Shown in pieces: positions 17,228 to 31,222 of a stretch of DNA of 64,000 nucleotides. Within the stretch, counting starts at the first letter, position 1; every line of letters begins with the position of its first letter. The stretch lies in NCBI RefSeq assembly GCF_018986915.1, contig NZ_CP076723.1, positions 4,182,228 to 4,246,227 of the forward strand. The letters run 5' to 3'. The DNA comes from Geomonas oryzisoli. Its GTDB lineage: Bacteria; Desulfobacterota; Desulfuromonadia; Geobacterales; Geobacteraceae. The position numbers and the translations under genes are program-made. Below the pieces are notes generated by a model. The model made no database searches, had not been told where the DNA came from, and saw nothing but the letters and a program-made list of their open reading frames with translations.

Positions 17228-17407
17228 CTAGGCCGCCTTCTGGTTCATCTCGGCGCTGCGTGCCTTCACGAGTTCCATCGCTTCCCTCATGATGTCGGAA
17301 ACGCTTTTCTTGGTGGAGTCCATGATTGCTTCGAGGGTCTCACGCTCTGCGTCGCTGATCCTCATGGAAATGACATTGTACCTCGGGTTCTCTCTCATTC
17401 TGCCCAT
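17228..17407 (-). CDS. 59-residue ribbon-helix-helix (CopG/Arc-type) DNA-binding protein
   Basis: The small product reads MGRMRENPRYNVISMRI, then SDAERETLEAIMDSTKKSVS and DIMREAMELVKARSAEMNQ. That is a beta-strand (NVISMRIS) followed by two helices, typical of RHH repressors such as CopG. An excellent AAGGAGAAG lies 8 nt upstream of the ATG. The gene stands alone behind a near-perfect sigma54 promoter and ends at a terminator. No toxin gene is adjacent, so it is probably a free regulator rather than an antitoxin. Its target is not visible in the window. Confidence 0.8.
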   Translation of the reverse strand: MGRMRENPRYNVISMRISDAERETLEAIMDSTKKSVSDIMREAMELVKARSAEMNQKAA

Positions 17408-17459: not shown

Positions 17460-17475
17460 TGCTATATGCGTGCCA
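17460..17475 (-). promoter_or_regulatory. Sigma54 (-24/-12) promoter of the RHH gene
   Basis: On the minus strand the site is TGGCACGCATATAGCA. It has the invariant GG and GC separated by 10 nt and matches the TGGCACG-N4-TTGCW consensus at all but one position. The start would be near 17450, with a leader of about 43 nt. A palindromic candidate enhancer lies about 120-140 bp upstream. Confidence 0.8.
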
Positions 17476-17570: not shown

Positions 17571-17590
17571 GTGCGCCACTTTTGGCACAC
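17571..17590. promoter_or_regulatory. Candidate enhancer palindrome (8-4-8)
   Basis: GTGCGCCA-N4-TGGCACAC has one mismatch between half-sites. The same architecture, with GTGTGCAA-N4-TGGCACAC, lies over the promoter of the sigma54 activator gene at 20002-20021. The spacing upstream of the sigma54 promoter fits an enhancer for an NtrC-type activator. Confidence 0.6.
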
Positions 17591-17653: not shown

Positions 17654-19936
17654 TCACTCATCTTCTTCCTCCCGAGCGCGGATTGTGCGCCCTTTCAACC
17701 CATGCTTGGCCAAAAGACGATAAAAGGTCCTTCTGGGGATGTTGGCAAGTTGTGCCGCTTTTGACACATTGCCTCCAGCGTCGGCCAGGTAACGCTGGAT
17801 CAGCTTCTTCTCGACCCGCAGTACGTGCGGCTCGCGCTCCTTTTTAAACGAGCGCAGGTCGATGACATCCTCCCCCTCGTCGGCGTAGCTTTCGGCGAAG
17901 GCCAGCGGCAGGTTGCCCAGCTTGATGATGTCATCGTGGGTGAGGACGGCGGCGCGCTCGATGACGTTCTGCATTTCCCTGATGTTGCCCGGCCAGGGAT
18001 ACTTGACCATGGCGTTGATGGCGCGCTCCTCGATCCCCACGATGTGCTTGTTCAGCTTGTTGCGCGCCTTCTCTAGGAAGTAGTGCGCGAGCTGCGGGAT
18101 CGACTCCACCCGTTCCCTAAGCGGCGGCATGGTGATGGAGAAGACGTTCAAGCGGTAGTAGAGGTCCTCGCGGAACCAGCCGTCGCGCACCCCGTCCTCC
18201 AGCGACTTGTTGGTGGCCGCGATGAGGCGGACGTCGACGCGGCGCGCCACGGTGCCGCCGACCGGCCGGACCTCGCCCAGGTCGAGCACGCGCAACAGCT
18301 CCGCCTGAAGCTTGGGGGTGATGTCGCCGATCTCGTCCAGGAAGATGGTGCCGCCGTCGGCCGCCTCGAAGAGGCCCTTCTTTTCGGTGATGGCGCCGGT
18401 GAAGGAGCCTTTCTTGTGGCCGAACAGTTCGCTCTCCAGCAGCGAATCCGTGATGGTGGTGCAGTTGACCGTTACCAGCGGTTTGTCGTTTCTCTTGCTG
18501 TAACGGTGGATGGCGCGCGCCGCCAGTTCCTTACCGGTACCGGACTCGCCGCGGATCAGCACCGTGGTCGGCGTCGGACCTACCTGCTTGATCTGGTCCA
18601 GCGCTTCCAGCGTGTTGCCGTCGCTCCCCACGATGAACTCGTCGCCGTACTCGCGGTCCAACTCCCTCTTGGCCAGTTCGTACTTCTGGATCAGGCGCCC
18701 GCGCTCCTCCTCCAGCTGCTGCAGGTTGTGCGGCAGGCACATCTCGAGGTCCGCCAGCCCCTGGAACACCGCTACCGCGTACTCGCGGCAGGTACGGTAA
18801 CCGCAGGTGCGGCAGTTGAGCTCGTCTTTCTGGGTGAACTTGTTGGTTGCCTGGAGGATCTTTTTCACGTCGCCACCCTTCGGGGTGGGGAGCTTGGCGT
18901 ACTTGTCCGAGAAGGTGCGCGACAGGTTGATGTCCCACTCCTTCTGGTAGTGCGGCGCCACGCGGTACGGGGTCTCGCCCCTGAAGTGGTTGATCACCAT
19001 GTTGCGCCGTGAAAACTCGGTCAGTTCCTTGTTGCGCCCCGGACCGCCGATGCAGCCGTCGTAGCAGAACCGGAGGTCGACCAGCTTCGGGCTGATGCGC
19101 CCGGCGGCGAGGTCCTTGATGATCCCCATTACGTTCACTTCGCCTTCGGCGGTGACGATGTCGGTATCGAGCGGGTCGGGATTGATGCCGAACGCCTGGA
19201 AGGAGCCCTGGGACAGCGAGAAGACCCGCCCCATGTGCGGCGCCCTGCCATCGAACGGCTCCTCCTGCAACGCGGAAAGGTCGATGCCGCGCTCCCTGAA
19301 GATCGACTCCAGTTCACGGTAGGTGAGCAGAACGTCCACCGCGCCCTTGGTCTGCTCCGCCTGCACCTCGAACTTCCCGGCGATGCAGGAGCTGATGTAG
19401 ATCACTTTCACCTGCTCGCCCAGCACGTGCTTGAGGTAGCGCCCCATGGCGACCATGTGGGTGACCACGCCGACCAGGTTCTCGATCAGCTGCGGGTAGT
19501 GCCGCTCCACGAGATCGACCACGGCGGGGCAATGGGAAGAGATGAGCGGCAACTGGGCTTTATCGATGGCGTTTCTGTACTCGCCTGCGATCAGCTCCAC
19601 GCCGCGGGCCCCCTCATGCACCTCGGCAAAACCGAGCTGACGCAGCCCGGCGGAAAGCTGGCCGGGAGAGCAGTTGTGGAAGAAAGCGGGGAAGGAGCAG
19701 CCCAGGACGGCGACGACGGGGTCACCGGAGGTAAGCAGCGCCTCGGTCACCACCACGTTGTCGGCGATGACCTTGGCGTGCTGCGGGCAGTTGCTCAGGC
19801 AGTTGCCGCAGCCGATGCAGCGCTCGAAGATGATCTCGGTGTAGCTCTTCTCCACCTTGATCGCCTTCACCGGGCAGCTGCGCACGCATGAGTAGCATTT
19901 TCGGCATTGGTCGGTAATGGTTACAATAGGATACAT
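17654..19936 (-). CDS. Sigma54-dependent activator fused to a non-catalytic [FeFe]-hydrogenase-like Fe-S sensor
   Basis: The 760-aa protein has five parts. First, two [4Fe-4S] ferredoxin motifs (Cys11/14/17/21 and 40/43/46/50). Second, a hydrogenase large-subunit-like domain (about 70-330). Third, a further four-Cys Fe-S motif (Cys375/378/383/400). Fourth, an AAA+ sigma54 domain (Walker A GESGTGKE 463-470, GSFTGA loop 510-515, Walker B near 530-536). Fifth, a Fis-type helix-turn-helix (about 705-745). The cluster-binding Cys of all three hydrogenase motifs are kept (SSHCP, SSCIAGKFE, RFCYDGC). The proton-relay Cys is His135 and the lysine of the second motif is Gly187. It is probably a redox or gas sensor, not an enzyme. 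Confidence 0.85.
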   Translation of the reverse strand: MYPIVTITDQCRKCYSCVRSCPVKAIKVEKSYTEIIFERCIGCGNCLSNCPQHAKVIADNVVVTEALLTSGDPVVAVLGCSFPAFFHNCSPGQLSAGLRQLGFAEVHEGARGVELIAGEYRNAIDKAQLPLISSHCPAVVDLVERHYPQLIENLVGVVTHMVAMGRYLKHVLGEQVKVIYISSCIAGKFEVQAEQTKGAVDVLLTYRELESIFRERGIDLSALQEEPFDGRAPHMGRVFSLSQGSFQAFGINPDPLDTDIVTAEGEVNVMGIIKDLAAGRISPKLVDLRFCYDGCIGGPGRNKELTEFSRRNMVINHFRGETPYRVAPHYQKEWDINLSRTFSDKYAKLPTPKGGDVKKILQATNKFTQKDELNCRTCGYRTCREYAVAVFQGLADLEMCLPHNLQQLEEERGRLIQKYELAKRELDREYGDEFIVGSDGNTLEALDQIKQVGPTPTTVLIRGESGTGKELAARAIHRYSKRNDKPLVTVNCTTITDSLLESELFGHKKGSFTGAITEKKGLFEAADGGTIFLDEIGDITPKLQAELLRVLDLGEVRPVGGTVARRVDVRLIAATNKSLEDGVRDGWFREDLYYRLNVFSITMPPLRERVESIPQLAHYFLEKARNKLNKHIVGIEERAINAMVKYPWPGNIREMQNVIERAAVLTHDDIIKLGNLPLAFAESYADEGEDVIDLRSFKKEREPHVLRVEKKLIQRYLADAGGNVSKAAQLANIPRRTFYRLLAKHGLKGRTIRAREEEDE

Positions 19937-19980: not shown

Positions 19981-20009
19981 ATTGTATAGGAATCGCGAAA
20001 AGTGTGCAA
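19981..20009 (-). promoter_or_regulatory. Sigma70 promoter of the hydrogenase-like regulator gene
   Basis: On the minus strand TTGCAC (20004-20009) and TACAAT (19981-19986) are separated by 17 nt. The transcript would start near 19974, about 38 nt before the ATG. The -35 box lies inside the palindrome at 20002-20021. Confidence 0.7.
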
Positions 20010-20021
20010 CAGTTGGCACAC
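20002..20021. promoter_or_regulatory. Operator palindrome over the regulator promoter (8-4-8)
   Basis: GTGTGCAA-N4-TGGCACAC overlaps the -35 box. With one extra flanking AA/TT on each side the inverted repeat grows to AAAGTGTGC/GCACACTTT. Its half-sites match the palindrome upstream of the RHH promoter. Binding here should repress, which suggests negative autoregulation. Confidence 0.65.
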
Positions 20022-20125: not shown

Positions 20126-20154
20126 ATTATACTGAGACGCTCAAAAGACTGCAA
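20126..20154 (-). promoter_or_regulatory. Sigma70 promoter of the candidate small RNA
   Basis: On the minus strand TTGCAG (20149-20154) is 17 nt from a perfect TATAAT (20126-20131). No gene follows before the terminator at 20040, so the promoter would drive an untranslated RNA. Confidence 0.75.
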
Positions 20155-20309: not shown

Positions 20310-21755
20310 ATGACAACCACGGCACGCTTTCATTTCTCACTACGGCTCATGGCGATACTGGCCCTGGTCCTCTTGCCGCTGCAACTCCTGGCGGCCGCCC
20401 CTCTTCCCAAGCTGGCCGCTCCGCCCGAGGGTGAGCGCTGGTTCAGCATCATCATGGGGGACGATCAGGTCGGTTTCGGCCAGACCACGGTGACCCGCAC
20501 TGCCGGCGGCTACCAGATCTCCTCGCGCGGCAGTGTCAAAATGAAGGTCATGGGCTTCTCCCGGGAAGCCAGCTCGACCGAGTCGTACCAGGTGGCGCCC
20601 GACCTCACCCTGCGCTCGTTCCAGGTCGAAAACCGCATCGACGGCAGCCCGGTGGAGATCAGCGGGGACGTCACCGCAAAGGGGATCACGGTACGGACGC
20701 ATTCGGCGAACGGGAACAAGGAGCGGACCCTGAAGGTCAAGGGAGCCGTCTACCCTCCGCACGCACTGAATCTCTACCCGCTCATGCAGGGCGCTGTGCC
20801 GGGGAAGACATACAAGATCCAGTACCTCGATCCGGAAGCGGTTAAGGTGAAGCAGGCGAAGGTCGAGGTGGTCGGCCCGGAAACGCTGGACGGAAAGCAG
20901 GTGGTCCACCTCAAGAACGACCTCTACACCATGGTCGACAACGACATATGGGTCGATTTCTCGGGGAACGTCCTGAAGGAATCGGTGCGGGACGGGCTGG
21001 TGCTCACGCTGGCCCGCGACGAGGCGGCGGCGCGGGCGGAACTGGCGGAAGCGGCCATGGACAGGAAGGACCTCGTGTACGACTTCAGCCTGATCCGGAT
21101 CACCCCTCCACTGGAGCATCCCGAGCGGCTGCAAAAACTGGTAGTGCAGATCACCGGGATACCGGCCCAGCAGCGCCTGCTGCAGGGGGCGTGGCAACGT
21201 GCGGAGCGCCAGCCAGACGGCAGCGTCATCTTCGTCCTGCCCAACCCGGCCCCTGCCGCGGAAGAACTCCCCACCCAGGCGGACCTGCAACCCGGAGAGC
21301 GCACGCCCAGCGACAACCCGGAGATTGTCGCCCGCATGATGGCGATCGTGGGAGACGAGAAGGTGGCCCCGGCCCAAAAAGTGGCCCGACTGACGGCGTG
21401 GGTCGCCACGCAAATCAAAGCCGACGTCATCGATTCCCAGTCGCCGTTGGAAACACTGCAAAAAGGGCGCGGCAACTGTCAAAGCCACGCGCGGCTTTAC
21501 GCCTCCCTGGCGCGGGCCGCCGGCATCCCGACCCGCTTCGTCTCCGGCCTTGTGTATCAAGGCGACGGGTTCCTGTACCACAGCTGGGCCGAAAGTTACC
21601 TGGAGGGGAAATGGGTTTCGGTCGACCCGACCTTCAACCAGGTCCCGGCCGACGTCACCCACATCAAGCTGATCGAGGGAGACTCGCTGGATGAATTGGG
21701 GAGCATCGCCGGCATGATCGGCAGGGCGCGGGCCAAGGTGCTCGAGAAGCGGTAG
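20310..21755 (+). CDS. Secreted transglutaminase-like (cysteine protease fold) protein
   Basis: The 481-aa protein has a signal peptide (to about residue 29, LLAAAPLP). A roughly 320-residue beta-rich region of unknown role follows, then a C-terminal transglutaminase-like domain. The catalytic triad is visible as Cys in GRGNCQSHA (about 390), His in YHSWAE (about 430) and Asp in VDPTFNQ (about 445). An AAGGAGGAT ribosome site precedes the ATG. Such periplasmic proteins may crosslink or cleave peptides; the substrate is unknown. It stands alone and is followed directly by a dispersed repeat. Confidence 0.85.
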   Translation: MTTTARFHFSLRLMAILALVLLPLQLLAAAPLPKLAAPPEGERWFSIIMGDDQVGFGQTTVTRTAGGYQISSRGSVKMKVMGFSREASSTESYQVAPDLTLRSFQVENRIDGSPVEISGDVTAKGITVRTHSANGNKERTLKVKGAVYPPHALNLYPLMQGAVPGKTYKIQYLDPEAVKVKQAKVEVVGPETLDGKQVVHLKNDLYTMVDNDIWVDFSGNVLKESVRDGLVLTLARDEAAARAELAEAAMDRKDLVYDFSLIRITPPLEHPERLQKLVVQITGIPAQQRLLQGAWQRAERQPDGSVIFVLPNPAPAAEELPTQADLQPGERTPSDNPEIVARMMAIVGDEKVAPAQKVARLTAWVATQIKADVIDSQSPLETLQKGRGNCQSHARLYASLARAAGIPTRFVSGLVYQGDGFLYHSWAESYLEGKWVSVDPTFNQVPADVTHIKLIEGDSLDELGSIAGMIGRARAKVLEKR

Positions 21756-30940: not shown

Positions 30941-31008
30941 TCAAAAACGCACTACAGGTGCGATTCCGGCTTTAGCCCCTCTGCCACGGAGGTTCCAATA
31001 AGCTTGCA

Positions 31009-31162
31009 TCCTGGCAGGTTTCCTGACTCACGGGTCGTCTTACTCGCCGCGCCTTCCCGATTCGATCAGTGGCGTTGTTGCGGCTTTCATCTCCGTTCAC
31101 AGTTGCGGGACAGCGAGGGATTCACACCCTCTTCCCTTTTAACCCCTCTCGGGGCACCAGGA
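31009..31162 (-). ncRNA. Cobalamin (AdoCbl/B12) riboswitch
   Basis: The leader has the conserved B12-box elements in order on the minus strand: P1 arms TCCTGG/CCAGGA, then GGGTGTGAATCCC, CTGTCCCGCAACTGT, AACGCCACTG, GGGAAGGCGCGGCGAGTA and GTCAGGAAACCTGCC. It begins about 255 nt before cobU. Bound cobalamin is expected to favour the terminator at 30908-30940 and shut off B12 synthesis and cobalt uptake. Confidence 0.95.
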
Positions 31163-31222
31163 CGAACGTCTATGTATGTATTGCGTGCAGCGACCTTTTA
31201 CTAACAGACGCCGCGGGGAAAG

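Follow-up and report, generated by a model that had tools for sequence, protein, structure and literature searches.

A sigma54-dependent activator with an [FeFe]-hydrogenase-fold sensor beside a putative hgtR gene in Geomonas oryzisoli

We analysed a window of 64,000 nucleotides (nt), meaning the whole stretch of DNA, from Geomonas oryzisoli (contig NZ_CP076723.1, positions 4,182,228 to 4,246,227), in which one gene encodes a sigma54-dependent activator whose sensor region has the fold of an [FeFe]-hydrogenase (Table 1; hereafter the activator). Its reading frame, strand and coordinates were checked and found correct, and no alternative in-frame ATG, GTG or TTG lies between the upstream stop codon and the ATG start. 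Besides the domains in Table 1, Pfam profiles placed Fer4_10 at residues 5-51 and AAA_lid_14 at residues 607-687. The AAA+ domain with its Walker A motif and GAFTGA-type loop (here GSFTGA), together with the helix-turn-helix (HTH), gives the protein the make-up of a sigma54 enhancer-binding protein; scores against the NCBIfam nifA and norR profiles were below cut-off. The activator can be described as a hydrogenase relic fused directly to a sigma54 activator. A preliminary description, made from the DNA letters alone, had proposed an enzyme relic that drives sigma54 transcription as a direct sensor of redox state, H2, CO or O2. The relic, its fusion and its retained cubane ligands held up; the idea of a normal H-cluster that binds H2 directly did not, given the maturase scores and pocket residues reported below. 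The absence of PAS, GAF and receiver domains, also claimed there, was borne out among the 25 shown of 30 Pfam matches up to E 1.

Table 1. Features of the activator locus (window coordinates)
Feature	Position	Strand	Basis
Sigma54 activator with hydrogenase-fold sensor, 760 amino acids (aa)	17654..19936	-	Open reading frame (ORF) list, sequence, Pfam
Two ferredoxin-type [4Fe-4S] sites, residues 1-60 (C11,14,17,21; C40,43,46,50)	19757..19936	-	Fer4 profiles
H-domain, residues 74-299 (C136, C184, C291, C295 kept; H135, S182-S183, G187, R289 changed)	19040..19717	-	PF02906, alignment, fold
Cx2Cx4Cx16C cluster motif, residues 373-402	18731..18820	-	FeS PF04060; spacing as in PMC8163306
Sigma54-interacting AAA+ domain, residues 435-601 (GESGTGKE, GSFTGA loop)	18134..18634	-	Sigma54_activat PF00158, E 1.1e-66; conserved columns
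Weaker dyad TGTGTCAAAAGCGGCACA, 12/14, inside HTH coding region; possible second site	17751..17768	-	Dyad scoring
Fis-type helix-turn-helix HTH_8, residues 708-744	17705..17815	-	PF02954, E 5.9e-9
Dyad TGTGCCAAAAGTGGCGCA, 13/14, between activator and small gene; putative upstream activating site	17572..17589	-	Dyad scoring
Sigma54 -24/-12-like element TGGCACGCATATAGCA	17460..17475	-	Pattern search upstream of small gene
59-aa ribbon-helix-helix-like protein MGRMRENPRYNV..., putative HgtR orthologue (GSU3364)	17228..17407	-	Gene order, weak profiles
Sigma70-type promoter of activator, TTGCAC-N17-TACAAT	19981..20009	-	-35 is right half of dyad 20003..20020
Dyad TGTGCCAACTGTTGCACA upstream of activator gene, 13/14 fixed positions	20003..20020	-	Dyad scoring
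atoC RNA (RF01733), 73.3 bits	20042..20133	-	Rfam

The central domain is a member of the H-domain superfamily: its Fe_hyd_lg_C match scored 162.8 bits against a gathering cut-off of 22.1, and its modelled fold was that of solved [FeFe]-hydrogenases. In the alignment with HydA2 (7qv7_D), on which the residue mapping rests, the cysteines fell inside the three cluster motifs rather than outside the cluster pocket, and both profile and fold were those of [FeFe]-hydrogenase rather than of an unrelated family. Cys136, Cys184, Cys291 and Cys295 align with the cubane ligands, the four cysteines expected of a catalytic enzyme, while His135 aligns with the first Cys of TSCCP (the proton-relay Cys) and Gly187 with the second-motif Lys, as the preliminary description had assigned them. 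Arg289 aligns with the Met of EVMxC before motif 3, and Ser182-Ser183 occupy the Met-Pro place ahead of Cys184; these two changes, like the adjacent sigma54-driven hgtR-like gene and the dyad sites, were absent from that description. In CpI numbering, C299, Lys358, Met353 and Met497 of the catalytic enzyme are thus replaced by H135, G187, S182 and R289. In catalytic enzymes, the motif-2 Lys is in contact with a cyanide ligand at the diiron site.

Conservation was followed in two sets, the 35 full-length orthologues of the family (broken copies in genomes G028 and G032 left out) and a set of named loci. For the latter, a contig scan kept 80 of at least 525 relatives, with types called by ORF length, alignment and reading: 72 of the present sigma54 type (L116 and L122 being shorter), most of them under Geobacter-related or Desulfuromonadales names, two Moorella sigma54 fusions (L124, L125) and six histidine-kinase fusions (L123, L126-L130). 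All 16 cluster cysteines, those of both ferredoxin clusters claimed earlier included, were invariant in 35/35 family orthologues, which rules out chance matches. Position 135 was His in 34 and Gln in one, position 187 Gly in 24 and Ala in 11, and position 289 Arg in all 35; across the 72 named loci, the counts were 71 His and one Gln at 135 and 72 Arg at 289. In contrast, the eight distant relatives (38-43% identity; kinase-type and Moorella) carry Pro, Asn, Ala or Ile at 135 and Leu, Asn or Tyr at 289, and 8/8 retain the motif-2 Pro and Lys. These differences at 135, 187 and 289 indicate that the pocket was re-lined in the activator clade.

The activator is the only PF02906 match in its own closed 4.85-Mb genome, where the best matches to the maturases HydF and HydG reached 86.8 bits (cut-off 325.55) and 21.4 bits (cut-off 312.15). 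HydF and HydG each exceeded the cut-off in 11 of 48 family genomes. The activator was present in 37/48, counting the two broken copies, and only two of these bearers, G005 and G038, had HydF and HydG; in this search for two maturases, both were below cut-off in the other 35. Genomes without the activator had HydF in 9/11 cases and HydG in 9/11. On sequence grounds, the changed motif residues and these scores exclude an ordinary catalytic hydrogenase, and the activator very probably keeps the cubane ligands but no diiron site. Its own genome has three full-length [NiFe] large subunits, with four weaker matches, and [NiFe] enzymes are therefore presumably its route of H2 use. A HydA of catalytic type, at about 310 bits, was seen in 11 family genomes (G001, G002 and G038-G046, with fragments in G005), from which the activator is absent except in G038; G005 combines the activator with HydA-like fragments.

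The four-Cys motif ahead of the AAA+ domain reads C375-x2-C378-x4-C383-x16-C400. The preliminary description was right that it exists (PF04060) and wrong to count it an addition, as it is the Cx2Cx4Cx16C of both sensory subclasses (PMC8163306). Two N-terminal clusters, this motif and the lack of C299 are features of the group C and D [FeFe]-hydrogenases, whose sensory role is still termed putative (PMC8924675). The PAS domain that follows the C-terminal cluster in group C was not among the 25 of 30 Pfam families shown, and the group B1 monomeric profile TIGR04105 gave 193.3 bits against a curated cut-off of 450. The activator is like the group C/D sensors, though probably devoid of their H-cluster.

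Profile matches of the small gene that follows the activator were weak (RHH_1, E 0.015; DUF6290, E 1e-4; both below cut-off). Of the 119 genomes of the order with the activator, 109 have a similar gene behind it; in the remaining 10, the two genes lie on separate contigs (eight) or farther apart on one contig (G106, G121). Among the 70 named loci with enough downstream sequence (L079 and L101, too short, were left out), 56 carry the small gene, and a -24/-12-like element precedes it in 56/56, its -12 being TAGC or TGGC in most cases and less often TTGC. GSU3364 of G. sulfurreducens is predicted to have an RpoN promoter and is preceded by a gene for an enhancer-binding protein (PMC2725144). GSU3364 is named HgtR in PMC7726332, PMC7894505 and PMC8691401, which state, citing Ueki and Lovley 2010, that H2 induces HgtR and that HgtR represses citrate synthase. 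Because the small gene occupies the same position, after an enhancer-binding-protein gene and with an RpoN-type promoter, we infer that it is hgtR. The ispD-ispF-glnS-cysS order beside it in the window probably also matches that of G. sulfurreducens. Among the papers listed in literature searches, none was seen to concern a hydrogenase-sigma54 fusion regulator, and none of those searched for GSU3363, the expected G. sulfurreducens counterpart of the activator gene, mentioned it; Ueki and Lovley 2010 may already discuss the adjacent activator, and we do not claim the activator-hgtR link as unpublished. Small-gene matches were strong in G001, G002, G039-G042, G045 and G046, reached only E 9e-9 in G043 and were missing from G044.

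Both intergenic regions carry a dyad with the consensus TGTGCCA-N4-TGGCACA (14 fixed positions). A dyad of at least 11/14 lies 93-117 nt before the -24/-12-like element in 56/56 small-gene loci, a score reached in 16/809 control windows and 5/1200 shuffles. The intragenic dyad in the HTH codons scores 12/14 in 61/97 orthologue rows, duplicates included. Upstream of the activator, a dyad of at least 11/14 was found in 68/70 named loci, its right half usually TTGCACA. A -10 matching 4-6/6 at spacing 17 followed in 52/87 distinct upstream regions, the best of spacings 15-19 being taken; the random-position rate of such a -10 at fixed spacing 17 is about 4%, and several sister-clade loci had no promoter match. 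Because the dyad covers the -35 box of this promoter, the activator may repress its own gene. With each palindromic site counted once, the genome has 19 sites with at most two mismatches, of which 3/19 lie in this locus; the reversed pattern gave 22. Among the 15 sites read, 13 lie outside the locus over open frames of at least 120 codons, a weak test, since one of the two locus sites among the 15 shares this property, falling in the stop-to-stop frame that precedes the activator ATG; the four other sites include the intragenic HTH site. No strict sigma54 match was found at the 15 sites, each within a 3-kb stretch, which is a weak test too, since the pattern misses the TAGCA -12 seen here. A broad dyad regulon was rejected on two grounds: the reversed control is at least as frequent as the dyad, and the outside sites lie over open frames; for the same reasons a local circuit, with HgtR carrying the wide effect, is favoured, though not proved.

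RNA elements adjoin the circuit. The atoC RNA, classed as probably cis-regulatory in PMC2864571, here has its own sigma70-type promoter (TTGCAG-N17-TATAAT, 20126-20154) at its 5' end, is closed by a terminator with a CCCUCCU loop and ends upstream of the activator promoter; it is therefore probably a free terminated small RNA rather than an activator leader. A terminator with a similar C-rich loop lies upstream in 39/91 loci, the closer relatives. In a sister clade, one or two dyads follow the activator, with a sigma54-like element in 10/12 loci, and then, in place of the small repressor gene, an 87-110 nt stretch and a terminal GC-rich hairpin with a CUCUCU loop. A candidate sigma54-driven small RNA can be read at L110, L112-L118, L121 and L122; L109 has the terminator and no element match, and L108 has neither. 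In nine aligned sequences, 5/15 consensus pairs were changed on both sides, a figure with no shuffle control behind it. No Rfam family reached threshold there in the seven loci searched. PrrB/RsmZ and isrK matches, below gathering score, were set aside. Elsewhere in the window, a cobalamin riboswitch (125.2 bits, 30996-31176, minus strand) lies close to ORFs whose translations look like cobalamin biosynthesis proteins, and a divergent gene (20310-21755, plus strand) encodes a 481-aa transglutaminase-core protein; a similar gene lies near the small gene in the activator-less genomes G001, G002 and G046.

The N-terminal part of the activator was found in 119/141 genomes of the order, fragments included, and the closest named relative among the matches listed was from Geomonas anaerohicana (98%). 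A tree of 33 rows grouped the sigma54 type of Geobacterales/Desulfuromonadales into one clade (100/99) with Moorella outside it, so two origins of the hydrogenase-sigma54 fusion are possible; L049 and the kinase kin sit on long branches, which leave their own placement and the deeper order unsure. Translated neighbours were read for the kinase kin L123 and L126-L129: L126 and L128 adjoin [NiFe]-hydrogenase-like genes, L127 NuoE/NuoF/HydA-like genes and L123 HypA/HypB-like genes. The same-family H-domain proteins L048, L049 and L050 (about 590-630 aa, SSACP or AQPCP motifs) have other output regions, phosphatase-like and chemoreceptor-like by sequence reading alone. A plasmid look-up gave only short matches, in two Azospirillum records.

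Taken together, these data favour, at a probability of about 0.6, a one-component, redox- and indirectly H2-responsive sigma54 activator of hgtR that uses a hydrogenase scaffold without the [2Fe] subcluster as its sensor. The scaffold would have lost the catalytic subcluster and kept four [4Fe-4S] sites: two ferredoxin-type, the cubane and the C-terminal one. As [NiFe] hydrogenases oxidise H2, the low-potential electron pool should rise and electrons would reduce the activator clusters; the C-terminal cluster, beside a helical linker, would relay the change to the AAA+ ring. Once active and seated on the dyad about 110 bp upstream, the ring would remodel sigma54 polymerase at the -24/-12 promoter and switch on the adjacent gene, whose product, induced by H2, would repress citrate synthase and further genes of central metabolism; binding over its own -35 box would limit the activator. 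A wider proposal is more tentative, at slightly less than even odds: a hydrogenase permanently turned gas- or redox-sensing activator, in which the re-lined His135/Arg289 pocket and the four clusters read electron supply, would be the missing H2-responsive hgtR activator across Geobacterales, with a sister clade driving a small RNA by the same sensor and dyads.

Several observations weigh against this circuit. The C-terminal cluster of the group D protein TamHydS is unresponsive to H2 (PMC13104023), and four of the maturase-less bearers (G025, G031, G032, G034) are less than 90% complete. The HgtR identity comes from gene order rather than from sequence comparison with GSU3364, the H2 induction link comes from G. 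sulfurreducens only, and HgtR protein was undetected in the results of PMC7894505 itself; H2 induction of hgtR could also reflect the carbon state of the cell instead of the redox state of the clusters. In 14/70 loci the small gene is missing at this position, namely 12 of the sister clade (L108-L110, L112-L118, L121, L122) and L080 and L081, where no sigma54-like element was found downstream of the activator. Conversely, a strong small-gene match occurs in 14 genomes that lack the activator; 11 of these were read, and the element still precedes the gene in 10 of them (G042 had no pattern match), which suggests that another activator can serve hgtR; the best dyads there score 10, 11, 11, 12, 12, 13 and 10 of 14, and 9, 9 and 9 in the f2 family. 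A sensor swap in such genomes was unsupported: an HTH search of eight gave matches in six, at best 44% identity. The dyad consensus was drawn from the loci in which it was counted, and the named and unnamed loci are orthologous, so its recurrence is conservation, partly through common descent, rather than independent discovery, and genome-wide it was not enriched (38 strand-counted hits, 44 for the reversed control). Finally, the kinase kin L129 has, by sequence reading, no hydrogenase neighbour.

It is also possible, if unlikely, that the activator senses Fe-S damage, iron or O2, with cluster loss or oxidation under O2, Co(II) or iron shortage switching the AAA+ ring and hgtR. Four predicted [4Fe-4S] sites would suit such a sensor, as would the finding, itself a point against the redox circuit, that hgtR of G. 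sulfurreducens went up under Co(II) stress but not under toxic Fe(II) (PMC7726332); the H2 induction cited for HgtR (PMC7894505) speaks for another input, and a whole hydrogenase fold would exceed what a damage sensor needs. Improbable, in our judgement, is a gas sensor with the cubane only, in which CO, NO or H2 would bind exposed cubane iron in the His135/Arg289-lined pocket. A near-invariant His and an invariant Arg in motifs beside the missing diiron site speak for it; however, the Arg may simply fill the cavity, and we know of no ligand for a cubane-only site.

We give still less credence to direct H2 (or CO) sensing by a complete H-cluster, made by unrecognised maturases or taken up from elsewhere. 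Fold and cubane cysteines are intact, and one group D relative builds an H-cluster and turns over H2 even though it has no relay Cys (PMC8163306), but the HydF and HydG scores in 35/37 bearers tell against it, as do the motif changes of Lys to Gly/Ala, Met to Arg and Met-Pro to Ser-Ser/Thr; the eight kinase-type and Moorella kin retain Pro and Lys. Least probable is that the hydrogenase part is a mere scaffold, the activator being constitutive or set by its own amount: the dyad over its own promoter would fit, whereas strict conservation of every cluster cysteine would not.

If the redox reading is correct, the locus would illustrate how a metalloenzyme turns into a sensor by dropping its catalytic half. 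It could also explain how Geobacter, important for reducing metals and respiring on electrodes, distinguishes conditions rich in hydrogen from those rich in acetate. The genus is genetically tractable, and a single promoter, a single candidate binding site and a single output gene are available at this locus for testing. Among known systems, TamHydS (group D/M2e) has the same two N-terminal clusters, H-domain and Cx2Cx4Cx16C, no relay Cys, no PAS and Ser at the M353 place, but it has a working H-cluster and no fused output domain (PMC8163306); the activator differs by Gly at the Lys358 place, Arg at the Met497 place, HydF/HydG below cut-off and the fused sigma54 module. Group C (TmHydS, and C1 with a histidine-kinase-type ATPase domain) likewise joins this module to a signalling output, as do the kinase kin by sequence reading, and C1 proteins from Hydrogenedentota almost entirely lacked recognisable H-cluster motifs (PMC11406978). 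Its output, however, is PAS/kinase rather than AAA+/HTH, and the kinase kin keep the motif-2 Pro and Lys. The Moorella fusions have, by the same reading, the same domain order and a sigma54-like element downstream, but they fall outside the Geobacterales/Desulfuromonadales clade, carry STPCP/GPCVAKK motifs, have other neighbours and show no dyad (best 8-9 of 14). HgtR (GSU3364), compared by gene order, likewise stands behind the gene of an enhancer-binding protein, with a predicted RpoN promoter (PMC2725144). In its order of sensor, AAA+ and Fis-type HTH, its putative upstream dyad site and its adjacent target, the activator resembles one-component activators of the NifA/NorR type, from which it differs in its profile scores and in having a hydrogenase fold as its sensor.
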